From Acidithiobacillus sp. AMEEHan (GTDB taxonomy: Bacteria; Pseudomonadota; Gammaproteobacteria; Acidithiobacillales; Acidithiobacillaceae), in assembly GCF_030996345.1 (NCBI RefSeq), contig NZ_CP118747.1, positions 1,238,001 to 1,302,000 of the forward strand: DNA of 64,000 nucleotides, written 5' to 3'. The notes under the pieces are model-generated. The model was not told where the DNA came from and did not search any database. It worked only from the letters and a program-made list of their open reading frames with translations. Shown piece by piece: positions 26,226 through 38,572 of this stretch. Positions within the stretch are counted from its first letter, which is position 1; each line of letters starts with the position of its first letter. Made by a program: the position numbers and the translations under genes.

Positions 26226-27320
26226 ATGCTCGGAGTACTACGGATGAAACGGCGCGCAAAGTCGGTTGCACTAATCATGATGATCTTCTCTGTGTTCGCG
26301 ACCTCCACTGAGGCCTTGGCGCAGGATAACAGCCAGCAAGGCAATCTCAAGGCCCCCCCGGAGTCGGCGAGCAAGAAGGCGATTTTGCAGCAGAACACCG
26401 ATTTCTTTTACGACCACATCACCCTGCAATCGAGTATGTCCTATGCGTACTCCGATCAGAACACGATCAATTTGAATGGGTTTCTTGCCCTCGGTGCCAT
26501 TTTTCTTGGCAACATCAACGTGAGCAAGGTCAAGTCGAGTATTTATACCTTCACGGAATCCGCCTATCTTCCCTTGGGGCGACGATTGCAGCTGGTTCTC
26601 AATGTGCCGATGGTCTATCGGCAAAGCACTTACGAGATTGGTGGCGCGGGGTATGCCAGCAATCAGTACAGTGAAGCGACGGTGACCTCTGGTGGGCCGC
26701 GCTTGGGAGATATCAGCTTTGGTGCTTATTACCAATTGGTACAGGAATCCAAGACCTGGCCGACCCTGACTGCCAGCCTCCTACTAACCGCGCCTACGGG
26801 TATAAACCCTTACGGGATCAAGTTATATCAACCAGACCCCAATAATACCAATCTGGAAGTGCCGACCAAGCTGCCGACCGGCAATGGCGTCTGGACCATT
26901 ACGCCAGGCATCTCTTTCGTGTCTACCTCGGATCCTGCCATCTTCTTCGGTAGTGCCAATTATTACTACAACTTGCAGCGCAGTTTTTCGGATATCAGTA
27001 CGACTGCGGATGTGGTGCAGCCCGGCCAGGTGCGCCTGGGTAATGCCTTTCAGTTCAGTCTGGGCGTCGCTTATGCCCTCAATGACCGTTTGAGTGTGAG
27101 TACCTCGTTTGCCGACCGGCTGCAGCAGCAGACCAGCGTACGTAGTCTCGGCAGCGCCTGGACCCCCGTCGTTGGCAGTGGTGCCAATGTCGGTGTCGCA
27201 AACCTTGGATTGACCTATGCGTTTACTCCGACCAGTTCCTTGATCATGAACCTCGGGATCGGCCTGACGTCCAGCGCACCGAACTTTCAGCTGACGGCGA
27301 CCATTCCATATAATCTATAA
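26226..27320 (+). CDS. fapF: FapF-like outer-membrane porin of functional-amyloid secretion
   Basis: A 364-residue (358 from ATG 26244) outer-membrane protein. It has a signal peptide ending STEALAQ, a short polar Gln/Lys-rich segment (about residues 36-58), then repeated amphipathic beta strands to a C-terminal strand ending IPYNL. FapF forms the trimeric barrel that exports Fap amyloid subunits. The N-terminal coiled-coil/plug segment is shorter than in Pseudomonas FapF. The assignment rests on the barrel, the adjacent fapA-E-like genes and a second, decayed copy at the far end of the same locus. Here the gene comes first and about 1.1 kb away, whereas in Pseudomonas fapF is last. A Shine-Dalgarno (aggaaag) supports ATG 26226. 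Confidence 0.7.
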   Translation: MLGVLRMKRRAKSVALIMMIFSVFATSTEALAQDNSQQGNLKAPPESASKKAILQQNTDFFYDHITLQSSMSYAYSDQNTINLNGFLALGAIFLGNINVSKVKSSIYTFTESAYLPLGRRLQLVLNVPMVYRQSTYEIGGAGYASNQYSEATVTSGGPRLGDISFGAYYQLVQESKTWPTLTASLLLTAPTGINPYGIKLYQPDPNNTNLEVPTKLPTGNGVWTITPGISFVSTSDPAIFFGSANYYYNLQRSFSDISTTADVVQPGQVRLGNAFQFSLGVAYALNDRLSVSTSFADRLQQQTSVRSLGSAWTPVVGSGANVGVANLGLTYAFTPTSSLIMNLGIGLTSSAPNFQLTATIPYNL

Positions 27321-27322
27321 CG

Positions 27323-27367
27323 GCAGACGATGCTTGGGTGCTTTGTATGTGCGCCCCCTCCGTCTGC
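27323..27367 (+). terminator. Nested stem-loop after fapF
   Basis: An outer stem GCAGACG/CGTCTGC encloses an inner stem GGGTGC/GCGCCC (one G-U pair) with a 9-base loop. It starts 3 bases after the fapF stop. There is no U-tract, so termination may be weak or the hairpin may protect the mRNA 3' end. Confidence 0.45.
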
Positions 27368-28149
27368 TCGGCACAGTGATCTTCTCGCTACCGGGGTAAT
27401 CGCGACGGTATCTGAGGCCTTACTATACGAACTACATGATGCTGTATGGGGGCGGCGCGCAGAGCATGCATGACTGTCCGGTGGATAACCACATCGCGGG
27501 GGTGATTGACAAGTCTTTTCGGAACAGCAACTTCTTTCAATGCTGCACCTGACGACCTTGGGAACGCGGAAGCATTCCGCGCTGACGCCAGAGCGCACAT
27601 AACACGCAAATCGCATTATCTGGACGAAAGGCTCCCCGGAGCAGTCCGTAACTCATGAGCTGCTGGAGCCACCGGCAATCCAGTACGTCGGATTTTCGAC
27701 CAAAAACGTTCTTGACCTGCTGCGCGATTCCAGCAGATCAAGGAGCGATATCCAGTACACGCCGGTAGATTCCATCGCTACCGTGTCCACACCGCAGGAC
27801 TTGAGCCAATCGGCCAAGGCCTCAAGATCCTCCGTGAAACCGGCAAATTCCCTTACCGGTTTCGCGATTCGCAGGGGCCGCGACATAGTGCGAGGCGCAG
27901 CCAATGTCGATGACGTCACCCAGGACCGCGCTTATATGCGGGCATAATGCTCCATTGACACATCGGTCTTCCGCAGCGCCCCGCACCTACTTTGCCATAA
28001 TCGGAGACGCAGCGTGTTTCATCGGCGCGATTCGTGGCACCCAGGGCCGATTACTACGCTTATATATGGCGATTGTGACACCAGTAAATTGATTTCATTG
28101 GAATAAAACGGTCCAGGCTGTGCATGATAGAGGCGCCGATTCAGGCTTG
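27368..28149. other. Gene-poor region between fapF and fapA, with IS110 debris
   Basis: Apart from the IS110 remnant at 27610-27900, only short frames are seen. One plus-strand frame (27400-27550) ends with MMLYGGGAQSMHDCPVDN and further residues to a stop, without a Shine-Dalgarno; it may be the tail of a lost gene. From 27920 to 28149 I see nothing coding. The region becomes AT-rich towards the fap promoter. Confidence 0.4.
27610..27900 (-). pseudogene. IS110-family transposase fragment, frameshifted
   Basis: On the minus strand one frame gives FTEDLEALADWLKSCGVDTV and AMESTGVYWISLL, typical of the N-terminal DEDD domain of IS110 transposases. After a frameshift another frame continues with QVKNVFGRKSDVLDCRWLQ and SYGLLRGAFRPDNA. 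Start, C-terminal Ser domain and ends are missing. It is an old, inactive remnant that marks past rearrangement between fapF and the rest of the fap locus. Confidence 0.85.
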
Positions 28150-28167
28150 TGTAACTTCATTGTTACA
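28150..28167. promoter_or_regulatory. Putative activator enhancer, palindrome TGTAAC-N6-GTTACA
   Basis: A perfect 6-6-6 palindrome, TGTAAC-TTCATT-GTTACA, with G before and TC after, as at 4439-4456. It lies about 180 bases upstream of the sigma-54 promoter at 28336, within the normal range for enhancer-binding proteins. Confidence 0.65.
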
Positions 28168-28335
28168 TCTGAGAAATCCCTTGTAAGCACTGAGGATATC
28201 AGCTGCTTGCCGATCACGTCCTGCCGAAGCAAGGAAAACTGTGTATATGGAGGTTTACAAACACCCGCCACTGACTGCAATGTGGTTTTTTCTTAACCCT
28301 ATGTTTACACGTAGATAATAATCATACGGCGCCTT

Positions 28336-28351
28336 TGGCACGGCCATTGCT
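28336..28351 (+). promoter_or_regulatory. Sigma-54 (-24/-12) promoter of the fap operon
   Basis: TGGCACG-GCCA-TTGCT matches the consensus TGGCACG-N4-TTGCW at every specified position. The predicted start is near 28362, leaving a leader of about 30 nt before the ATG at 28393. Confidence 0.85.
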
Positions 28352-28392
28352 ATGGAGAGCCCAGGCAATGAAAGCTCGTTGAGGTGGGTGCC

Positions 28393-28731
28393 ATGCAGCA
28401 ACGTCTAATCTTCCGAAGAGAGTTAGCAGGAATGCTCCGCGGCATCTGCTTTGCCCTGATGCTGGCATCTGGGTCTTGTATGGCAGCAAATGTCTCCGCC
28501 CCTGAGTCAACCATTCCCGGTTGGGGTAGCACCATTCCCGGAGCGGTTGTTCCCAACAAGGTTCTCGAAACCGTCCAAGGAAAAGGAGAGGCAGTCAGTC
28601 TCCCCAGTGTTGGTCGTTCGAATGGTGTCGTCCTCTGGGACGAACTGCCCACCAGGAAAGGTGCTGGATCGGAAAACCTACAGATGGGTGCACTGAATGT
28701 GCAGACCAACAGTATGCTGAGCAATCGCTGA
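28393..28731 (+). CDS. Small secreted protein, first gene of fap operon (FapA-like by position)
   Basis: A 112-residue protein with a signal peptide (GICFALMLASGSCMAAN). The mature part is short and rich in Gly, Ser, Val and Pro (PESTIPGWGSTIPGAVVP) and ends NLQMGALNVQTNSMLSNR. I do not recognise a domain. In Pseudomonas the first fap gene encodes FapA, a small periplasmic chaperone, so the position directly after the sigma-54 promoter and 13 bases before the FapB-like gene suggests the same role. The ATG at 28393 has GAGG 8 bases upstream and is preferred to a GTG at 28384. Confidence 0.6.
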   Translation: MQQRLIFRRELAGMLRGICFALMLASGSCMAANVSAPESTIPGWGSTIPGAVVPNKVLETVQGKGEAVSLPSVGRSNGVVLWDELPTRKGAGSENLQMGALNVQTNSMLSNR

Positions 28732-28744
28732 GGAAGAAACCGTC

Positions 28745-29374
28745 ATGACCCGCCACCTCCCAATCATCCCCGTGTTGCTCTCCGGAGCGATCGCGATCTA
28801 TGCCCAGGAAGCCTCGGCGCTGCCGCTGCCGAACACCGCACAAAGCGTCATCTCGGACAATGCCATGAGCAACGTTCTCGGTTCCACCATGACCAATCAG
28901 GCGGCTGGCAACAACAATCTGCAAGCCAACGTAGCCAACATCATCATGAGCCCTAATGGTCAGGGGGCGGGCACGATCAACGGTAAGGTCGTGCAGCAAT
29001 CGGTCCAAAGCAACAGTGACGTCTACAGCGCTCAGCAGACCCACATTTCTGGAAACGCCTTTGCCAACAGCGTCGGAATTCTTGGCATTAATCAGGCGGC
29101 AGGCTCTGGGAATGCTGAGAGTAACCAGACGAGCATCGTTATGGGTGCGTTAAAGCCCGTGAGCAACCAGGCGCTATCGCAGACCTTGACTGGACCGAGC
29201 AAGCAGGCAGGGACGCAGGCTGCCAGCGTCGGGGGCGGAATTCAGAAGGTAGAAGTTGCCGCCAGCGCCTTTAGGGGCGCCGGAGGCATCGCTCAAGTCA
29301 ACCAAGTTTCTGGCTCAGGCAATGCCTCGGCCAACAGTTTCGCTCTCGGGGTGGCTCCCGGAGTGATGCAGTAA
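28745..29374 (+). CDS. fapB: FapB-like minor amyloid (nucleator) subunit
   Basis: A 209-residue secreted protein with signal peptide (VLLSGAIAIYAQEASA) and three Fap-type motifs: MTNQAAGNNNLQANVANI, ILGINQAAGSGNAESNQTSI and IAQVNQVSGSGNASANSFAL. Spacers are Gln/Ser/Ala-rich. The motif NQAAG-x-x-N-x-x-x-N is the beta-solenoid amyloid repeat of FapB and FapC. It is smaller and less regular than the following gene, which fits a nucleator. Shine-Dalgarno GAGGAAG. No Cys pair is seen at the C-terminus. Confidence 0.75.
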   Translation: MTRHLPIIPVLLSGAIAIYAQEASALPLPNTAQSVISDNAMSNVLGSTMTNQAAGNNNLQANVANIIMSPNGQGAGTINGKVVQQSVQSNSDVYSAQQTHISGNAFANSVGILGINQAAGSGNAESNQTSIVMGALKPVSNQALSQTLTGPSKQAGTQAASVGGGIQKVEVAASAFRGAGGIAQVNQVSGSGNASANSFALGVAPGVMQ

Positions 29375-29433
29375 TGTAGTAAGCCGTGAAGTAGTCAACT
29401 CGTTTCGTTTTTCCTTCACCATAGGAGTATACC

Positions 29434-30777
29434 ATGAACACGATCCGTAAGCTAAGCCCCATCGCCATCGCCGTTGCCGCCCTTGTGGCCGCTCCGCTGG
29501 CCTTCGCCGGTGCCGGTGTCAGCAACAGCCAGACCAGCGCCATGAATGAACAAGGCTCCATGTTCAACGCCACGGGCAACGCCGTACTCGGTGGTAACGC
29601 CGCCGCCAACGCCTCCGGCAACATCGGCATCAACGTCGCCACGGGTTCGCAGAACCAGCAGGCCAATGCCGGCGCTCTGGCTTCCAACACCAACATCGAC
29701 GACGCTGCTGATTCCAACGCCAGCGTGAATGCCGGCCAGCTGGAGTTGATGGATTACGCCTGGCAGGTGATGAACGGCGCCAATGCCGTGGACTTCATCG
29801 GCAACGCTTTGCAAGGCGCTTCGGGTAACATTGGCGTGAACTTGGCCTCTGGCATTTTCAACCAGCAGGGCAACAACATGGCCGCTTCCAGCGCGGAGTA
29901 TTCGGACCACGCCAATGCCAGCATCGACGCCAGCCAGGTCAGCGCCATCAATTCGACCTACAGCAACCGCAATTATGGGCATGAAGTTGGTGCCAGCAAT
30001 GAGACGGGTCTGTATGGCAACGTCCTGCAGAATGCTTCTGGCAACATCGGCGTCAACGAGGCGGCCGGTATCGGCAACCAGCAGAGCAACAGCCTGGCTT
30101 TGGCCACTGCTGCCAACACTGACCACGAAGGCTATCCCATTGGTGCCACCGCCACCGTCAGTGCGTTCCAGGGCATGGGCGCCAATCAAACCATGCAGGG
30201 CAATCCCTACGCGTACTACTGGCAGTGGTCCTACGTCAACAACACCGCTGGCCTTGGTAGCAACGCGCTGGAAGGCGCATCCGGCAATATTGGCGCCAAC
30301 ATGGCCTCTGGCAACAGCAACCAGCAGAGCAACAACACCGCTCTGAGCGCGACCAGCAACAGCTACAATCACCAGTCCTCAACGGATTATGCGGATGCCT
30401 CTGCGGGTGCCACGCAAATGTCGCTATACAACACCACCTCGGACACCGGGGTCCAGGATAGCGCCACCGTCGACGGCAATGCCGCTGCGAATGCCTCTGG
30501 CAACATCGCCATCAACGTCGCTGCCGGTGCGCAGAACCAGCAGGAGAATGGTCTGGCCATGGCTTCTATCGCCTCAGCCAAAGCCATGGGCAACGCCTCG
30601 GCGCCGGTGGAGCAGGTCGCCTACTACAACGGTGGCACGACCTCGGGTTCGATGTACAACAGCAACGTCAGTGGCAATGCTCTTGCGGGCGCCTCGGGCA
30701 ACCTCGGTCTGAACGTGGCTACTGGCAACGGCAACCAGCAGGTCAACACCCTGGCTATCGCCAGCGTGACCCACTAA
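29434..30777 (+). CDS. fapC: FapC-like major functional-amyloid subunit
   Basis: A 447-residue secreted protein with signal peptide (residues 1-26) and six near-identical 31-residue repeats beginning at about residues 54, 123, 195, 276, 348 and 414, each with the core ASGNIGVNxAxGxxNQQxN. Linkers of about 35-50 residues between them are rich in Asn, Ser, Tyr and Ala. This is the Fap amyloid pattern; Pseudomonas FapC usually has three repeats, so six is a long form. There is almost no Cys, and acidic residues sit in the linkers. A strong Shine-Dalgarno (aggag) precedes it and a hairpin follows the stop. It is likely the main fibre protein of the biofilm matrix. Confidence 0.85.
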   Translation: MNTIRKLSPIAIAVAALVAAPLAFAGAGVSNSQTSAMNEQGSMFNATGNAVLGGNAAANASGNIGINVATGSQNQQANAGALASNTNIDDAADSNASVNAGQLELMDYAWQVMNGANAVDFIGNALQGASGNIGVNLASGIFNQQGNNMAASSAEYSDHANASIDASQVSAINSTYSNRNYGHEVGASNETGLYGNVLQNASGNIGVNEAAGIGNQQSNSLALATAANTDHEGYPIGATATVSAFQGMGANQTMQGNPYAYYWQWSYVNNTAGLGSNALEGASGNIGANMASGNSNQQSNNTALSATSNSYNHQSSTDYADASAGATQMSLYNTTSDTGVQDSATVDGNAAANASGNIAINVAAGAQNQQENGLAMASIASAKAMGNASAPVEQVAYYNGGTTSGSMYNSNVSGNALAGASGNLGLNVATGNGNQQVNTLAIASVTH

Positions 30778-30789
30778 TCTGCTTGGTTT

Positions 30790-30817
30790 CTGCCACCCCT
30801 ATGGGGGTGGCAGTTTT
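30790..30817 (+). terminator. Intra-operon hairpin between fapC and fapD
   Basis: CTGCCACCCC (30790-30799) pairs perfectly with GGGGTGGCAG (30804-30813) around a 4-base loop, followed by TTTT. It starts 12 bases after the fapC stop codon and looks like a strong partial terminator or 3'-end protector. Confidence 0.85.
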
Positions 30818-31197
30818 CCAGTAGTTACAGGCACTGCCGGAGACTGCCATGTGTCATTTCATTTCTTTTTATCGTAAAAATTTTATCTCCGGAATGTTCG
30901 GCATTGGTCTTCTGGCCCTTGCTCCTCTTTCTCAGGCGGCAGCTTTCGGCAACATCATTCCCGGAGCGGGCGTCATTCATGTTCCCGTGCGCAGCATGGT
31001 AGACATGCATTTTATCCATGTGATTCGCCAACACACCGATTTTTCCTGTGGCGCGGCTTCTCTCGCCACCATCCTCAAATATGCTTTTGGTCAGGACGTA
31101 ACCGAAGAATCGGTCATGAAAGGCTTGTTCACGGTAAGTAATCCCGCCGTGGTAAGAAAAGTCGGATTTTCACTTTTGGACATCAAAAACTATGTAG

Positions 31198-31205
31198 AAA
31201 AAATT
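31198..31205. repeat. Left target-site duplication of ISL3 copy 2
   Basis: AAAAAATT, directly before the IS end GGCTCCTCG; repeated at 32510-32517. Confidence 0.93.
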
Positions 31206-32509
31206 GGCTCCTCGACACATTGAGTGGGTAAGGCGGTATGATTGCTTTATGGGAAGGGCAGCGAGCTGAGGATAAGGATGGACCAAGGTAATCAACTGTT
31301 CACTCTGGCGTTGGGGTTGGTTCCGCCGTGGATGGTGGACGATGTGCGGTTCACGGTGGAGGAAAAGCGCCTGGACCTGCATGTGAACTTCCCAAGGGGT
31401 AGTCAGTTTCCCTGTCCGGTCTGCGGCCAGGACTGCCCGGTCTATGACACCCAGGAGAAGGTCTGGCGTCACCTCGACTTCTTCCAGCATGCGGCTTATC
31501 TCCATGCCCGCGTACCACGGGTCCATTGCCCGGAACACGGCGTGCATTTGGTATCCGTCCCTTGGGCGCGGGAAGGCTCGGGATTCACGCTGCTCTTTGA
31601 GGCTCTAGTCATGGCCATGGTCCGGGAGATGCCCGTGTTGACGGTCTCCCGCCTAGTGCGGGAGACGGACCAGCGACTCTGGCGGGTGCTCGATCATTAC
31701 GTCGCCAAGGCCCGCGAGGCCGCGGACATGTCAGAGGTCCATTCCGTCGGTATCGATGAGACGAGCAGCCGGCGCGGCCATGATTACATCACCCTGTTTG
31801 TGGACCTCGTGGCGAAGCGCCTGCTGTTTGCCACACCCGGCAAGGATGCCGAGACTTTTGCGCAGTTCGCCGAAGATCTGCAGGCCCATGGCGGCAGCGC
31901 CGAGGCCATTACGGAGGTCAGCATGGACCTCTCGCCAGCCTTCCAAAAAGGGGCCGCAGAACACCTGCCCAACGCCCAGGTCACCTTCGATCGCTTTCAC
32001 CTCATGAAGCTCGTCAATGAGGCCGTAGATGCCGTACGCAAGGGGGAAGCCCTCTCCCAACCAGACCTGAAAAAGAGCCGCTGGCTTTGGCTCAAGAACC
32101 CGGGAAAGCTCTCCGCCAAGCAAAGCGCCAGGCTCCGGGAGATCCTCAAGAACCAGAACCTCAAGACAGCACAGGCTTATCAGCTTCGCCTGACCTTCCA
32201 AGAAATCTTCACCGTCCAGAATCGCCACCAGGGCGCCACCCTGCTCAAGGCCTGGGTGGAAAACGTCAAGGACAGCGGATTACCGCCAATGGTCAAGGTC
32301 GCCTACACCGTCATGAATCACTGGGATGGTGTGCTCCGCTGGTTCGAGAGCCAGATCACCAACGGGATTCTGGAAGGCTTCAATAGCCTCCTCCAGTCCG
32401 CCAAGGCAAAAGCCCGTGGCTACCGTACCCACAAGAACTTTATCAACATGGCCTACCTGATCCTCGGTAAACTGGATCTCAGGCTACCCACATGAAACAT
32501 CGAAGAACC
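31206..32509 (+). mobile_element. ISL3-family insertion sequence, copy 2
   Basis: 1304 bp, the same length, ends and deduced transposase as the element at 4997-6300, but in the opposite orientation. Terminal repeats are GGCTCCTCGACACAT and (complement) GGTTCTTCGATGTTT, and the duplication AAAAAATT flanks it. It interrupts the fapD-like gene. Confidence 0.95.
31242..32495 (+). CDS. ISL3-family transposase (copy 2)
   Basis: 417 residues, the same protein sequence as the copy at 5011-6264, with the same zinc-binding N-terminus and DDE residues. It reads in the direction of the fap operon, so IS-driven transcription could reach fapE and the polysaccharide genes. The start is a TTG at 31242, with ATG at 31278 as an alternative. 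Confidence 0.95.
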   Translation: MLYGKGSELRIRMDQGNQLFTLALGLVPPWMVDDVRFTVEEKRLDLHVNFPRGSQFPCPVCGQDCPVYDTQEKVWRHLDFFQHAAYLHARVPRVHCPEHGVHLVSVPWAREGSGFTLLFEALVMAMVREMPVLTVSRLVRETDQRLWRVLDHYVAKAREAADMSEVHSVGIDETSSRRGHDYITLFVDLVAKRLLFATPGKDAETFAQFAEDLQAHGGSAEAITEVSMDLSPAFQKGAAEHLPNAQVTFDRFHLMKLVNEAVDAVRKGEALSQPDLKKSRWLWLKNPGKLSAKQSARLREILKNQNLKTAQAYQLRLTFQEIFTVQNRHQGATLLKAWVENVKDSGLPPMVKVAYTVMNHWDGVLRWFESQITNGILEGFNSLLQSAKAKARGYRTHKNFINMAYLILGKLDLRLPT

Positions 32510-32517
32510 AAAAAATT
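32510..32517. repeat. Right target-site duplication of ISL3 copy 2
   Basis: AAAAAATT, abutting the IS end CGAAGAACC. Confidence 0.93.
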
Positions 32518-32886
32518 GGTCTCAAGGGTCAGGGTTATGAGGTCAAACCTTCCCAGCTGGAGGCTATCCACATTCCTGTGATCGTCCTTTTGGACTTGGG
32601 CGGTTACAAGCATTTCGTCGTCTTGGAAAAAACTACGGAGAACAAGGTATATCTGGCTGATCCAGCTCTGGGTAATCGGATCATGGAAAAAAACGTCTTT
32701 TTGAAAGACTGGAATGGAATTGTTTTTGCTGTATTCGGCAATGGGTTTGACCCCCACTCTGTTTTGCTAACACCTCCGAAACCTCCGAGTGCGCTGCGCT
32801 TGCTCCACGGCGAACTGCCAAACGTACCTTTGCAGCCAGCACATTTTGGCTATGATTTCGTTAAATATTTTTGAGGAGCATAAATC

Positions 32887-33636
32887 ATGTACACCAGAAA
32901 ATCTTTCATCTCTCTCGGAACTTCGTTGCTGGTCGGCTGCGCAACAACAGGCGCCATGGCTGGTCCTTTACCTTTTCAGGCCCCCGTTGTTGCCGATTCC
33001 ATGTTGGCAAAAATGATTGGCAAAGGGGTTATTGGTGGTAAGATAGTATACTTTGGTGTGCAGATGCAGACCAATTGGACAAACTCTGCCTCGAAAACCC
33101 CTATGCAAGGCAATCTAAACATTGCCTTCAACAGCAACAACCAGGTTTTTGTTCCGACTATCACTTATTCCGTCACCAATCCCAGACTCCCCAAGGTGGC
33201 ACCTGATCCCAATACGGACGTAAATGGCGCGGGTTTAAGCAATATCCACGGGGTCACGCAGGCGATACAGGTTGGGGGTCAGGAAAATGCAATCCAGAAC
33301 CGCATGACCTTGAACGTGGTAAAAGGTAGACCGGACGATCTGCAAGGATCCGCTGGAAGCACTCTTGGCCAAGGAACGACCCAGGTTGGAGATGTCACGC
33401 TTACGGTACAATCTGGACAGCTGTCCATGCTGATCAACAACGGTGCCAACACCGTTCAGCAAGGTATTGGTAGCAACGGCGCCTATCAACTGGCGCAGAT
33501 CGCGAGCAACGCTAACCAGATCGAGAACACCATGCACATGACGCTCGGTGTGAACCCTAGCAATAGCGCCGGCGCGCCGCAACTGCAGCAATTGCAATCC
33601 ATGCTAAAAGCGAATTTTCCGACTAATCTTCCCTGA
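32887..33636 (+). CDS. fapE: FapE-like secreted protein of the amyloid locus
   Basis: A 249-residue secreted protein. The signal peptide has a lipobox-like LLVGC but also an Ala-rich AMAG cleavage site, so a lipoprotein is possible. An N-terminal part contains IVYFGVQMQTNWTN, followed by Gln/Asn/Gly-rich segments such as NNGANTVQQGIGSNGAYQ and IASNANQIENTMHMTLGV, which loosely echo the Fap repeat. FapE in Pseudomonas is a minor fibre component found extracellularly with FapC. The call is from position after fapD and from composition. Good Shine-Dalgarno (tgaggagc); 12 bases after the fapD stop. Confidence 0.6.
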   Translation: MYTRKSFISLGTSLLVGCATTGAMAGPLPFQAPVVADSMLAKMIGKGVIGGKIVYFGVQMQTNWTNSASKTPMQGNLNIAFNSNNQVFVPTITYSVTNPRLPKVAPDPNTDVNGAGLSNIHGVTQAIQVGGQENAIQNRMTLNVVKGRPDDLQGSAGSTLGQGTTQVGDVTLTVQSGQLSMLINNGANTVQQGIGSNGAYQLAQIASNANQIENTMHMTLGVNPSNSAGAPQLQQLQSMLKANFPTNLP

Positions 33637-33710
33637 GGCCTGACCTGCATGGAAGCCGGGTCAGCAGGTATTGCTTGAGATGACTCGGGCTCTTTGGAAA
33701 GGATAGAAAA

Positions 33711-35162
33711 ATGACAAGACCATCCCCAACGCCACCTATTGCTGGAGAGGGCGATCCACCATTTCCAGCTCTTTCAGAACCGTCGGCCACTACTGGCAAT
33801 GTATTCCCCTTGCCACAGAGTGTAGCGAGCCAAACTGTCGACGAGCGGCGGAAACCCGCATGGTTCATCTACTTTCCGGTTACCGTCAAGTTCGTTGTGG
33901 CCCAGATTGGCGCGATACTCTGGGTCCTCTTTAGTTTCTGGATTGCCCTGCCTTGGATCCATAACCTGGATACTGTCATCGGGCCAATCCTGACAATCTT
34001 GATCATCGGTGGCGTCGCCATTATCCCTGGGTATATCTCCGGATTCATGCTCTTCAGCACTCTGCTTGATCGTCGGCCGCGCATTGTCTCGATTGATACC
34101 TACCCACCGATCAGTATTCTCGTGGCCGCCTACAATGAAGAGCTCGTCATCAGCGACACAATCCATTCCGTATTGCTTCAAAGCTACCCCGGAATGCACG
34201 AAATCATTGTCATTGATGATGGATCAAAAGATGCAACGGCAGAGAAAGTGAAAGCCTTCACCGATTCCCGTGTGCGTCTCATTCGGCAGCCCGTCAATGG
34301 CGGAAAGGCCAGCGCACTTAACGCGGGTCTGCAGCATGCAAAATTTGACATCGTCATCACCCTCGACGCCGATACGTATTTGTACCGCGATGCCCTGCAG
34401 AAGATCGTGGGTAGATACCTGAGTGACCCCAGTAATACAGCAGCAGTAGCCGGTGCCCTGGCCGTCCGAAACTCTCGTACCAACTGGATCACCCGACTGC
34501 AAGAGTGGGATTACTTTCATGGTATTGCCATCGTCAAGCGTGTTCAGAGTCTCTATCAAGGAACCTTGGTAGCTCAGGGAGCCTTCTCCCTCTATGAGAA
34601 AAAGGTGCTGCAAGAGCTGGGCGGTTGGGCGCCGGTGGTAGGAGAAGACATCGTATTGTCGTGGGGTATGCTGAAAAAAGGCTATCGTATTGGCTACGCA
34701 GAAAATGCGGTGGTCTTTACCAATGTTCCAGAATCATATAGACAGCTCTTTCAGCAACGACGACGCTGGGCTCGGGGTATGTTTGAGGCCGTGCGCGTCC
34801 ACCCAGGCATCCTATTGCAGCCGCGCCTGACACTCCAATTTGTCTTCATCAATATGCTGTTTCCGTTTATTGACATGAGTTATATTCTCTTCTTTGTGCC
34901 TGGCGTGATTGCCGCGTTCTTTGGTTTTTTCCTGATCGCAGGCCCGATTACGCTTTTACTAATTCCGCTGGCAGCACTTAATAATTTCGTCATTTACTTT
35001 GTGCAATTACGGATGTTTCAAAGTCGTGGCCTGAAAGTGCGTCGTAATATTCGCGGGATGTTTTTGTATGTTTTCTTTTCCCAGCTACTGATGAGTCCTG
35101 CCTCCATTGCTGGATACGCTTCGGAAGTGCTGCGTCTCAGCAAAACCTGGGGGACCAAGTGA
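33711..35162 (+). CDS. Processive GT2 glycosyltransferase, PgaC/IcaA-like
   Basis: A 483-residue inner-membrane GT2 synthase. Two N-terminal membrane helices (about residues 62-130) precede the catalytic domain with ILVAAYNEELVISDTIHSVL, VIDDGSKDATAEKV, TLDADTYLYRDAL, GEDIVLSWGMLKKGYRIGYA and QQRRRWARGMFEA, followed by three or four C-terminal helices. This motif set (DDG, DxD, GED, QRRRW) is that of PNAG, hyaluronan and chitooligosaccharide synthases; PgaC is the closest fit. There is no PgaB-type deacetylase or PgaD next to it. The stop overlaps the downstream porin gene (GTGA). Likely a membrane synthase for a beta-linked amino-sugar polymer; the monomer is unproven. Confidence 0.8.
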   Translation: MTRPSPTPPIAGEGDPPFPALSEPSATTGNVFPLPQSVASQTVDERRKPAWFIYFPVTVKFVVAQIGAILWVLFSFWIALPWIHNLDTVIGPILTILIIGGVAIIPGYISGFMLFSTLLDRRPRIVSIDTYPPISILVAAYNEELVISDTIHSVLLQSYPGMHEIIVIDDGSKDATAEKVKAFTDSRVRLIRQPVNGGKASALNAGLQHAKFDIVITLDADTYLYRDALQKIVGRYLSDPSNTAAVAGALAVRNSRTNWITRLQEWDYFHGIAIVKRVQSLYQGTLVAQGAFSLYEKKVLQELGGWAPVVGEDIVLSWGMLKKGYRIGYAENAVVFTNVPESYRQLFQQRRRWARGMFEAVRVHPGILLQPRLTLQFVFINMLFPFIDMSYILFFVPGVIAAFFGFFLIAGPITLLLIPLAALNNFVIYFVQLRMFQSRGLKVRRNIRGMFLYVFFSQLLMSPASIAGYASEVLRLSKTWGTK

Positions 35163-36622
35163 GCAGGAAAGCAGAGATACTGATAATTATAGGAAGTGTT
35201 TTTTGCACGGGGTTTTTTCAGGCAGCCTTCGCCGCTTCGGATGATCCAGGAGAGCAAATACGGAAGGGTCGACAGGCGCTGCAGGAAAACCACCCACAAA
35301 GAGCCCTAGACGCCTTCCAGTTGGCACTCAAAAAGATTGACGAGCATCCCGTTCGCTACGCCTCCGACCGCCTGGCGGCCCTTTCAGGAAAAGGCTATGC
35401 AGCGCTTTGGCTAGGAAATGATCATCAGGCATATCGCGCTTACGCACAGGCGTTTCCTCTCGCGAAAGTGCCGAGTGATCGCAAGGTAGTCAGTGTAGGC
35501 TTGGCGCGGGCACTCATTGCCAATGGCCGACCGATCGAAGCCTTCAATATCACTCAGCCATATCGGCAGCACCCTCCGGTCGCCTTGCAATCAGCCATTG
35601 CTGCCAATCTGCTGGACTGGAATGTCATGGCCAAACAAGATCTGGCCCTTGCCGCCCCTGCAGGCCACTATGTCGGGCCTGATTGGGAGGCTCGTCTATA
35701 CCGCATCACCAATAATTATGTCGATTTTGCCTTGCAGCCCAAAATCCGCCTAGGCTTTCACTATAGCAGCGACATCGACAGCAACATCAATCAAATCTAT
35801 TCTGCCGATGCGTTTTGGCCAGGTCGGTGGCTAAGCCGAAAAGGACTCAATCCTACCTTCTGGCAGGTCGGATTTCAGCAGACGCAGGTTGCTGATCCTA
35901 GTGGTCAGGTGGGTCTGAGTGCTATTCGTGCCGGTTGGTCGGCTATTCCCTCAAAGGATTGGCGATATTCCATCTTGGCGGGTCTAGGGACTTCCGGAAA
36001 AGGATGGACCTATGCTTCACTGCATGCCAGTACCCTCTATCAGCCCAGCGATAGCTGGGGGTTAGACGGCAGCGCAGACCGTGAACTGGTACGTACCTTG
36101 GGCGCGGTGCAAAACCAAATCTTAGTCAACACGTTGAGCGTAGGCGGATTTGGTCGACTGCGCGATCTCGGCACCTTAAGCGCAGCCTATTTCCATCAGT
36201 CTTTCTCCGACGACAACCAGCGCAATGGCGTGGTCGTCCGCTTGACTCCAGAATTCTTGACTCTAGGTCGTTGGCCCATCGCTCTGGGGATCCAAGGCTA
36301 CTACCGTCAGTTCGAGAGTAGCGTAGTTCCATACGCCGGTTATTTTAATCCCCAAAATTATCGGGAAGCATTGGCGTATCTGATCTATGTCCAAAAATTT
36401 TCGCCATACTGGACTCTGCGCTTCTATTCGGGATTTGGGTCACAGACGATTGATGGCGTGACGTCGGGAGTACAGGATTATTATGGCACCCTAACCGGCT
36501 TAATTTCTCCCTACTGCTCTGTTTCCCTGACTGGAGGTTACAGCAACATAGCCAATGTCTACGGAGGCGGTCCAGGCTACCATCGCAGCTATTTTGGCGG
36601 GGAGATTTCCATTCCCTTTTGA
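35159..36622 (+). CDS. TPR and beta-barrel outer-membrane polysaccharide porin, PgaA-like
   Basis: A 487-residue secreted protein. Signal peptide (IIGSVFCTGFFQAAFAA), a short helical TPR part (about residues 27-180; ALSGKGYAALWLGNDHQAYR), then an outer-membrane barrel of alternating aromatic strands ending GGEISIPF with the terminal Phe needed for Bam insertion. The plan is that of PgaA, but far shorter (PgaA is about 800), with fewer TPRs. Translational overlap with the GT2 synthase (GTG start inside its stop) implies a synthase-exporter pair. The last gene of the fap-polysaccharide transcript; no terminator is seen. Confidence 0.75.
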   Translation: MSRKAEILIIIGSVFCTGFFQAAFAASDDPGEQIRKGRQALQENHPQRALDAFQLALKKIDEHPVRYASDRLAALSGKGYAALWLGNDHQAYRAYAQAFPLAKVPSDRKVVSVGLARALIANGRPIEAFNITQPYRQHPPVALQSAIAANLLDWNVMAKQDLALAAPAGHYVGPDWEARLYRITNNYVDFALQPKIRLGFHYSSDIDSNINQIYSADAFWPGRWLSRKGLNPTFWQVGFQQTQVADPSGQVGLSAIRAGWSAIPSKDWRYSILAGLGTSGKGWTYASLHASTLYQPSDSWGLDGSADRELVRTLGAVQNQILVNTLSVGGFGRLRDLGTLSAAYFHQSFSDDNQRNGVVVRLTPEFLTLGRWPIALGIQGYYRQFESSVVPYAGYFNPQNYREALAYLIYVQKFSPYWTLRFYSGFGSQTIDGVTSGVQDYYGTLTGLISPYCSVSLTGGYSNIANVYGGGPGYHRSYFGGEISIPF

Positions 36623-36670
36623 GTCTGTGTTGCCCCAGCCACAAGCAATCCGTGCGACAGGAGATGCGTT

Positions 36671-36800
36671 CAGATTATCGGAGATCGTCGTAGTCAATTG
36701 GAAATTGGGCGCGCTCGACTTCAGCCCAATACCAAGATTCATGATCAAATTGACCCTTCCGGCGATTGGACAGGCTACCGCGAAGGCCGCATCTAACCTG
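36671..36800 (-). pseudogene. Decayed 3' fragment of a second fapF-like gene
   Basis: The minus-strand translation contains LIMNLGIGLKSSAPNFQLTT followed by TISDNL. The real fapF at 26226 ends LIMNLGIGLTSSAPNFQLTA followed by TIPYNL. Upstream similarity fades (FAVACPIAGRVN against LTYAFTPTSS), and the stop after DNL is lost by a small change. It is therefore an old C-terminal remnant of a paralogue, on the opposite strand and at the opposite end of the fap locus. Confidence 0.8.
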
Positions 36801-37083
36801 ACCTACTTCTGTCTTACCGTAAGTCTGGTGCCAACAAACTGCGATTATCTCGGCCGGGGTCATACGGCGCGCTTTTTGGCTGACATGCTGTTCGAGCTTT
36901 ACCATAACGATCGTTTCGTGAACCGTTTGGATCTGGACAGACCCGATCCTCTGACGGGGTCGTGTTCAAGAAGCTATCTGTATTGCAGCCGTTACAGATC
37001 AGAGAGATGCAGCAGCCTGGCGCAGCGTCCAAAAAGTGGCTAGCTGTTTGGTTTTACAAATGAAAGTGGATGGAAGAGGAGTT

Positions 37084-37101
37084 TGTTACGTGTTCGTAAC
37101 A
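37084..37101. promoter_or_regulatory. Palindromic operator TGTTACG-N4-CGTAACA
   Basis: A perfect 7-4-7 palindrome of 18 bp. It fits the same TGTWA-N8-TWACA frame as the sites at 4439 and 28150. It lies 71 bases beyond the 3' end of the activator gene, pointing at the decayed fapF fragment. Confidence 0.55.
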
Positions 37102-37137
37102 GTGCTTGGGAAGTCATCGTACTACATTGATTCTCAA

Positions 37138-37155
37138 AAGTACGTTCGCGTAACA
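37138..37155. promoter_or_regulatory. Degenerate second operator half-match
   Basis: Core TACG-TTCG-CGTA, with a full right half-site CGTAACA and a poor left half. Centre-to-centre distance to the site at 37084 is 54 bases, about five helical turns. Confidence 0.35.
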
Positions 37156-37171
37156 GGGGAGTTGTCGAGGG

Positions 37172-38572
37172 CTATCGATCCTTCTGCCCGGGTGGGGTGA
37201 TGCCATGTTTCTCCATCAATCGATAGAGGGAGACACGGGAAATCTGTAACAATTCCGCAGCGCGGGTGATGCTACCAAGACTTTGCGCGACGGCCGCCTT
37301 TATGGCATCCCGCTCGGCCGCATCTCGAGCCTCCGACAGACTGACCCTTGCTCGTTGGTTCTGTCGACGCTCCAGACCGAGGTCCTCGGCGTTGATGAGA
37401 ATCTTGTCACACATCACCATGGCACGACGTACCCGATTGATCAGTTCACGAATGTTCCCAGGCCAGGAGTAGCTATTCATGATTTGCAAGGCATCTTCGC
37501 TAAAGCCCTTGACACGTTGGCCGCGCTCGTCAGCGAAGCGATGGAAGACATAATTGGCCAAGAGCGGGATGTCTCCTTCGCGAGCTCGCAGTGGAGGCAT
37601 GAGAATCTGCAATACGTTGAGACGATAGTATAAGTCCTGTCGAAACCGCCCGCCTTTGATTGCCTCCTCCAGATTGACATGGGTTGCCGCAAGTACACGA
37701 ACATCGACACGAATTTCGTCCTTGCCGCCTACCCGGTGAATGGTTTGTTCTTGCAGAAAGCGGAGAAGATTTACCTGCAGATCGAGAGGCAGATCGCCGA
37801 TTTCATCAAGAAACAGGGTGCCGCCATTGGCGGCTTCAATGCGACCAATTTTCCTTTCTGTCGCGCCAGTGAATGCGCCTTTTTCATGCCCAAACAGTTC
37901 CGACTGAATCAGGTTGGCGGGGAGAGCGCCGCAGTTGACAGCAACGAAAGGACCGTCCTTGCGAAAGGATCGTTCGTGAATGGCTCGGGCCGTCAATTCC
38001 TTACCAGTACCACTTTCACCAGTGATCAGGACGGGTGCATCAGTTGCTGCCACCTTGCGAATGTCTTGATAGACCTTTTGCATCTGTTTGCTGGCGCCAA
38101 CCATTTGCTCTTCTGTGGTTGCGGAGTTGACGTCGGAGGTGAACAGGGCTTCTCGGGAGATCTCTGCCATGCCCGCAGCGTGTCCTAGCATGACGAGGAA
38201 ACGTTGCGGGTCAATGGGAGTGGTGTGGTAATCGTAAAAGGCACTACCAATGAGTTGCCGTATAGCCAGTTGGTTGAGCAGCTCTTTCTCTACCAGGGCC
38301 AGCCAACGGATGTTTTCATTTTGCGCAATCAGTCGCAGCAGATGCTTTTGCCATTTTACCGCGTCGACATCCTGCAGCACCAAAATACCAACCGAGGGTT
38401 GCTGCTTGCGCAGCGCCGCCGATACTTCGTCGATATGCCGAAACGGCAGGAGGATCCATTCTTGGGCGCTGAGGAGTTCTCGTGCTGGCGCAATTACGTC
38501 TTCGGGACCGAGGTATAGGGCGACTCGACGAAGAATACTCGATTGCACAACCTCTGTGTCTCCTGCTGCCAT
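37172..38572 (-). CDS. Sigma-54 enhancer-binding regulator, VpsR/FleQ-like
   Basis: A 466-residue sigma-54 activator. Residues 1-140 look like an atypical receiver domain without a clear phospho-Asp site, as in VpsR and FleQ. The AAA+ domain has Walker A GESGTGKE (185-192), sigma-54 contact loop GAFTGA (232-237), Walker [11 protein letters not shown] (251-260) and [10 protein letters not shown] Fis-type helix-turn-helix lies at about 421-460 ([20 protein letters not shown]). With GAFTGA intact it should open sigma-54 promoters. Relatives control exopolysaccharide and are tuned by c-di-GMP. The two sigma-54 promoters in this window, upstream of matrix operons, are its likely targets. It is convergent with the PgaA-like gene; ATG 38572 has a GGGGA site. 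Confidence 0.88.

Follow-up and report, generated by a model that had tools for sequence, protein, structure and literature searches.

A Fap functional-amyloid locus of Acidithiobacillus sp. AMEEHan with an inverted gene block, a split fapD and a FapF pore lacking the periplasmic coiled coil

INTRODUCTION

Does Acidithiobacillus sp. AMEEHan carry a genuine Fap functional-amyloid locus, how did the gene order of that locus arise, and can the locus still export fibres? The window, a stretch of 64,000 nucleotides of its genome, had been described from its letters and open reading frames as holding a rearranged Fap locus in a likely acidophile. The host is an acidophilic sulfur bacterium of the Acidithiobacillaceae, in keeping with that description; its 2.63-Mb genome belongs to Igneacidithiobacillus, among whose clades strain YTS05 also falls (PMC11021618). 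Below we take up the identity of the genes, the state of fapD, the origin of the gene order, the regulation of fapA and the FapF pore. All positions are those of the window.

IDENTITY OF THE LOCUS

Open reading frames and profile searches bear out the proposed order of fapF, a gap, and then fapA, fapB, fapC, fapD and fapE, all on the forward strand at 26226-33636 (Table 1). FapF (the barrel protein, rightly named as such), FapB, FapC, FapD and FapE each match their own NCBIfam models. The preliminary description had named the lack of any match to the FapB, FapC and FapF profiles as grounds for its own rejection, and all three match. The five scores lie below the NCBIfam curated cut-offs; distant members can be expected to score in this way, since the full-length proteins of relatives fall below them as well. 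FapC and FapF also match the solved structures of their Pseudomonas counterparts (Table 1). FapA has no match in the profile library, but a profile made from ten FapA proteins, all of them from outside the family, gives it 41.9 bits. The Fap identification is correct, and the functional-amyloid locus is genuine and of the Acidithiobacillaceae type. The locus itself is not new, because Acidithiobacillus Fap with a detached fapF and four to eight FapC repeats was published in 2013 (Dueholm et al., PMC3792158). The earlier reader missed the EPS-type genes directly after fapE, as well as the sigma-54 promoter, the remnant of a second fapF and the gene for an enhancer-binding protein.

Table 1. Features of the Fap locus and its surroundings, in window coordinates
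Feature	Position	Strand	Evidence and remarks
fapF, outer-membrane export pore, without N-terminal periplasmic coiled coil	26226..27320	+	NF058560 2.9e-103, model positions 97-418/420; PDB 5o65 FapF 2.8e-81; N-terminal comparison
Remnant of TPR outer-membrane gene (follows fapF in YTS05)	27417..27538	+	82% nucleotide identity to L025 12581-12702; frame reads YYTNYMMLYGGGAQS...
IS110-type transposase remnant	27653..27919	-	PF01548 9.3e-4, below curated cut-off; single copy in genome
Sigma-54 (-24/-12) promoter of fapA, TGGCACGGCCATTGCT	28336..28351	+	Sole zero-mismatch site in window
fapA	28393..28731	+	Possible GTG start at 28384; 41.9 bits, outside-family FapA profile
fapB, minor subunit	28745..29374	+	NF058557 7.3e-20; three repeats by minimal motif
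fapC, main fibre subunit, 447 aa, six repeats, no Cys	29434..30777	+	NF058558 4.7e-46; PDB 9nqd FapC 1.2e-15
fapD 5' part	30849..31205	+	NF058616 3.4e-28; catalytic Cys codon 31047-31049
8-bp target duplication, left copy, AAAAAATT	31198..31205	+	
ISL3-family insertion sequence, 1304 bp; transposase 31242-32495	31206..32509	+	NF033550 9.4e-108 (above cut-off), PF01610 3.8e-73
8-bp target duplication, right copy, AAAAAATT	32510..32517	+	
fapD 3' part	32510..32874	+	NF058616 1.3e-24; His codon 32611-32613, Asp codon 32659-32661
fapE	32887..33636	+	NF058559 2.1e-22
PgaC-like family 2 glycosyltransferase, in fapABCDE block	33711..35162	+	TIGR03937 9.4e-56 (below cut-off); PF00535 2e-34; adjoins fapE in L055, L059, L060
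PgaA-like outer-membrane barrel protein, in fapABCDE block	35159..36622	+	PF21197 4.6e-6, TIGR03939 7.2e-8, both below cut-off
Second fapF, last 28 codons, at far block edge	36671..36754	-	79% protein identity to fapF 337-364; colinear with L055 block up to its fapF end
VpsR-type sigma-54 enhancer-binding protein (EBP), probable fapA regulator	37172..38572	-	PF00158 4.5e-75, PF20161 VpsR 4.4e-19, PF02954 1.2e-7, all above cut-off

Repeats were counted with the minimal Fap motif G-x4-N-x3-G-x6-N. The count of six in FapC agrees with that first reported, with spacings of 69, 72, 81, 72 and 66 residues; full-length FapC proteins of the genus have six (five by the motif at locus L059) and those elsewhere in Acidithiobacillaceae six or eight. 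FapC has a pI of 4.05, and its His and Trp residues occur only, and its Tyr residues almost only, outside the repeats. The charge contrast claimed between linkers and repeats stands as one of degree: the linkers are the more acidic (net charge -14 over 188 residues, against -7 over 234 residues for the repeats), but both are acidic. The other ground named for rejection, repeats modelled as something other than a stacked solenoid, did not arise. An AlphaFold model of FapC is all-beta (pTM 0.82, repeat regions mostly at pLDDT 82-92) and the protein matches the FapC structure in sequence, but in a fold search with the model the best PDB match, again FapC 9nqd, was not significant (E 0.13), so that a FapC solenoid, with one cross-beta Greek-key layer per repeat, is supported mainly by homology.

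THE SPLIT fapD GENE

What had been taken for a single C39 peptidase gene, fapD, is in fact two fragments flanking an ISL3-family element with a copy of an 8-bp duplication on each side. The element has a transposase and imperfect terminal inverted repeats in addition to the target duplication, and it splits the catalytic Cys of FapD, encoded before it, from the His and Asp encoded after it; with its gene split, FapD is not present in the window as an intact periplasmic C39 peptidase. The genome holds about 19 near-identical copies, including a tandem pair, a pattern that suggests recent activity; 8-bp duplications flank other copies too. The fapD genes found in other Acidithiobacillaceae genomes, that of YTS05 among them, are uninterrupted, and a search of the window genome gave no further FapD match besides that on a short contig, C4.

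In the Pseudomonas system a FapD knockout and the active-site mutant C38A both abolish FapC secretion (PMC5557850). By analogy, Fap export has probably been lost in the assembled chromosome, and the locus is likely non-functional as assembled because fapD is split. For the same reason, Congo red or ThT staining of the AMEEHan strain could well be negative, a practical warning that this strain may be the wrong choice for an acid-stable amyloid search.

An ordinary working operon, with the fapD insertion confined to a minority of cells or to one culture and most cells making fibres, is one alternative. Contig C4 (L011; 6493 bp) is a near-exact repeat of window positions 30145-37957 minus the insertion body, and the insertion may thus be absent from some cells. 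The fap genes other than fapD are open in the window, and FapD and FapF are made in 'Fervidacidithiobacillus caldus', an acidophile of the same family, where they are reported among the abundant membrane-vesicle proteins (PMC10853474). We nevertheless judge a working operon unlikely. The insertion is carried by C1, the 2.55-Mb chromosome contig, while C4 is short and rich in errors, its indels, commonest toward the contig ends, frameshifting fapD regardless. At the C4 junction, near base 1047 of the reverse complement, some ten bases correspond to the right-hand end of the insertion. C4 may represent a minority haplotype, the result of an excision that was not precise, or an error in the assembly. 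It was rejected as a second intact fap copy, being an error-rich 6.5-kb version of the same locus, and as a pristine empty site, given the trace of the insertion end at its junction.

Fap loss of other kinds was observed at two sampled loci: L073 has fapF beside the EBP gene with fapABCDE gone, and at L074 fapC is truncated and both fapD and fapE are missing.

INVERSION AND PROBABLE REPLACEMENT OF THE BLOCK

In 13 relatives, counting L025 and L056 as one locus, fapE and fapF lie on one contig; the two genes are convergent in 12 of these and divergent in the other. Only the window has fapF in front of fapABCDE and in the same direction. The order at L055 is priA, the EBP gene, fapA-B-C-D-E, the glycosyltransferase gene and the PgaA-like gene, followed on the opposite strand by fapF and a DEAD-box helicase gene. 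DNA comparison with L055, L060 and others shows that, in the window, the stretch running from fapA through the PgaA-like gene is turned round, with fapF at one end of it and the EBP gene at the other. The inverted block occupies 28.3-36.75 kb and comprises fapABCDE and the genes for the glycosyltransferase and the PgaA-like protein. The rearrangement seen in the preliminary description is thus real, but it is not a move of fapF from the end to the front; such a transposition was rejected, as the DEAD-box helicase gene and fapF form a fixed flank beside which the block was inverted.

The block and its flanks also differ in their relationships. Between the window and YTS05 the DEAD-box, FapF, EBP and PriA proteins are 91-96% identical and FapA to FapE 46-68%; where the window has the glycosyltransferase and the PgaA-like protein, YTS05 has a TPR protein, a HEAT protein and another glycosyltransferase. 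The window joins YTS05 in the FapF and EBP trees, and in the FapE and FapB trees YTS05 joins L055, with the window outside. AU tests reject a grouping of the window with YTS05 for FapE (1e-75) and FapB (5e-5). Vertical descent is rejected for these two proteins, and the window block and that of the nearest species are different alleles. Evolution of the fap genes is fast, and some of the disagreement among the trees could stem from rate effects.

Read most simply, a related block replaced the resident one, in the opposite orientation. The main rival is hidden paralogy, by which an ancestor had two fap blocks and the species kept different ones, with no transfer and with the inversion as a separate event. 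Genomes with two fap loci do exist (L064 and L065 in G017; L080 and L089 in G291), but two blocks are found in none of the examined genomes of the genus. The flanks are the same, and the edges of the block, with 122 bp of a YTS05-type TPR gene behind fapF and the tail of a second fapF at the far end, suit replacement in place, so we consider hidden paralogy quite improbable. The IS110 debris reported between fapF and fapA is there, in the same gap as the TPR remnant; a multi-copy element was rejected as its source because the genome has no other copy of the stretch.

PROMOTER AND PROBABLE REGULATOR

The perfect -24/-12 site before fapA is the only perfect match in the 64 kb, and 15 relatives have a sigma-54 site with no more than a single mismatch close to where fapA begins (fapB in one of them). 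RpoN is encoded in the window genome. The EBP gene borders the block, and in relatives it lies directly upstream of fapA; its product combines a VpsR N-terminal domain, a sigma-54 AAA+ domain and a Fis-type HTH domain, as expected of the VpsR type. Of 16 fap loci sampled from the class as a whole, 15 have a related EBP gene, and a VpsR domain was found in five of the six tested among those genes. Through the inversion, the EBP gene borders the end of the block opposite fapA; sigma-54 activators of this type can act in trans. A scan of the region for sigma-70 promoters and terminators gave results near the shuffle level or modestly above it.

In Pseudomonas fluorescens fapA is driven by RpoN and the c-di-GMP-sensing EBP BrfA (PMC9207406, PMC13101488), and from this likeness we infer that RpoN and the EBP may be wired to the window fapA in the same way. 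The conserved sigma-54 promoter and VpsR-type activator suggest in concrete terms how bioleaching bacteria might turn on their biofilm fibres. YTS05 has, away from its fap operon, a second fapA-like gene (L025:2100-2459); a sigma-54 site with one mismatch goes with it, and sugar-nucleotide genes come next.

A FapF PORE WITHOUT THE COILED COIL

The most interesting part of the locus is the coil-less FapF. All FapF homologues were said in 2018 to have a periplasmic coiled coil (PMC6173795), and in the Pseudomonas model the FapF coil and plug are reported to be critical for secretion. The profile match begins at model position 97 of 420 in the window FapF, mostly at 84-112 in other members of the family, and at 2-25 in most canonical FapF proteins. 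Coil-bearing FapF proteins have 125-168 residues, with a heptad-like helix, before the barrel motif; coil-less ones have about 50-57 residues between the signal-peptide core and that motif, and no trimerisation motif. In the window FapF there are about 57 residues after the signal-peptide core and no R-h-x-x-h-E/D motif. Judged in this way, from sequence alone, the other complete FapF proteins examined in Acidithiobacillaceae also lack the coil. Its absence appears common to the family and marks what is probably a variant Fap system, not an exclusion from Fap.

Every sampled system with at least six FapC repeats and a complete FapF lacks the coil (12 loci of the family including the window, plus L089 and L092), and systems with three or four repeats have it, except L091 and L094. 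A strict rule that no coil means many repeats was rejected, as these two appear coil-less with three repeats. In the FapF tree the coil-less pores fall on one side of a branch with modest support (85/68), when L091 is counted as coil-bearing and the divergent FapF-like proteins of L070-L072 as short, L094 being absent from the tree. We lean slightly towards a distinct Fap subtype, found in Acidithiobacillaceae and in two or more further families of the class, with a coil-less pore, a FapC of six to ten repeats and often an embedded exopolysaccharide synthase. If there is such a subtype, the gating of its pore cannot follow the Pseudomonas model. Because an entire clade of FapF does without the coil, and the FapC that goes with it has at least double the repeats, what the coil does can be tested directly.

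Several further arrangements were observed. L094:2739-14499 holds a tandem duplication of fapABCDE, with a sigma-54-like site per copy, before one coil-less fapF. In genome G291, with its two fap loci, L089 combines a FapF that lacks the coil with a FapC of 10 repeats and a glycosyltransferase, and L080 has a coil-bearing FapF. A divergent fapD/fapF-like pair lies beside sigma-54 activator genes at L070, L071 and L072, in three genomes of the family in which no FapC match was found.

PROPOSED MECHANISM AND HISTORY

Our explanation as a whole, from the identity of the locus to the split of fapD, has in our estimate a probability of roughly 80%. In intact relatives a VpsR-type EBP, probably c-di-GMP-sensing, would activate RpoN at the fapA promoter. 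FapB, FapC and FapE would reach the periplasm by Sec, and FapD would enable their secretion through FapF. Six-repeat FapC would then stack into fibres, alongside a PgaC/PgaA-like exopolysaccharide made from the same block. In the window genome the block from fapA to the PgaA-like gene would have been replaced, in reverse, by the allele of a different Acidithiobacillaceae lineage, leaving fapF in front and the regulator behind; an active ISL3-family element would later have entered fapD, with export probably off in the assembled chromosome. That this insertion serves as a reversible on/off switch for fibre export is very hard to credit: filled and insertion-free versions do occur within one assembly, but the C4 junction is imprecise and out of frame, no other Acidithiobacillaceae genome with fapD has an insertion at that place, and ISL3 elements are not known to excise precisely and often.

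COMPARISON WITH KNOWN SYSTEMS

Curli (Csg) resembles Fap as an extracellular repeat amyloid, and a CsgA structure came second, without significance, in the FapC fold search; the curli pore is different, Fap has a C39 peptidase, and none of the proteins described here matches a Csg family. With PgaC and PgaA, of poly-N-acetylglucosamine, the window shares a family 2 synthase and a PgaA-like barrel, but the scores are far below the curated cut-offs and neither PgaB nor PgaD is encoded directly beside them. The Pseudomonas fapABCDEF operon is alike in all six proteins, in its sigma-54 promoter and in the EBP gene beside it; unlike the window, it has fapF last and co-transcribed, a FapF with the coil, a three-repeat FapC and no glycosyltransferase.

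Closest are the Fap loci of Acidithiobacillus (PMC3792158) and 'F. caldus' (PMC10853474), of the same family, which likewise have a detached fapF and a FapC of more than three repeats. The window differs from them in its inverted block, with fapF in front and in the same direction, and in its insertion-split fapD; its FapB has three repeats by the minimal motif, against two reported for Acidithiobacillus. Fap in Acidithiobacillaceae is already known. Within the literature searched, three things appear new: the clade of coil-less FapF, the sigma-54/VpsR surroundings that Acidithiobacillaceae conserve, and the state of the AMEEHan copy, which is swapped, inverted and split by an insertion.
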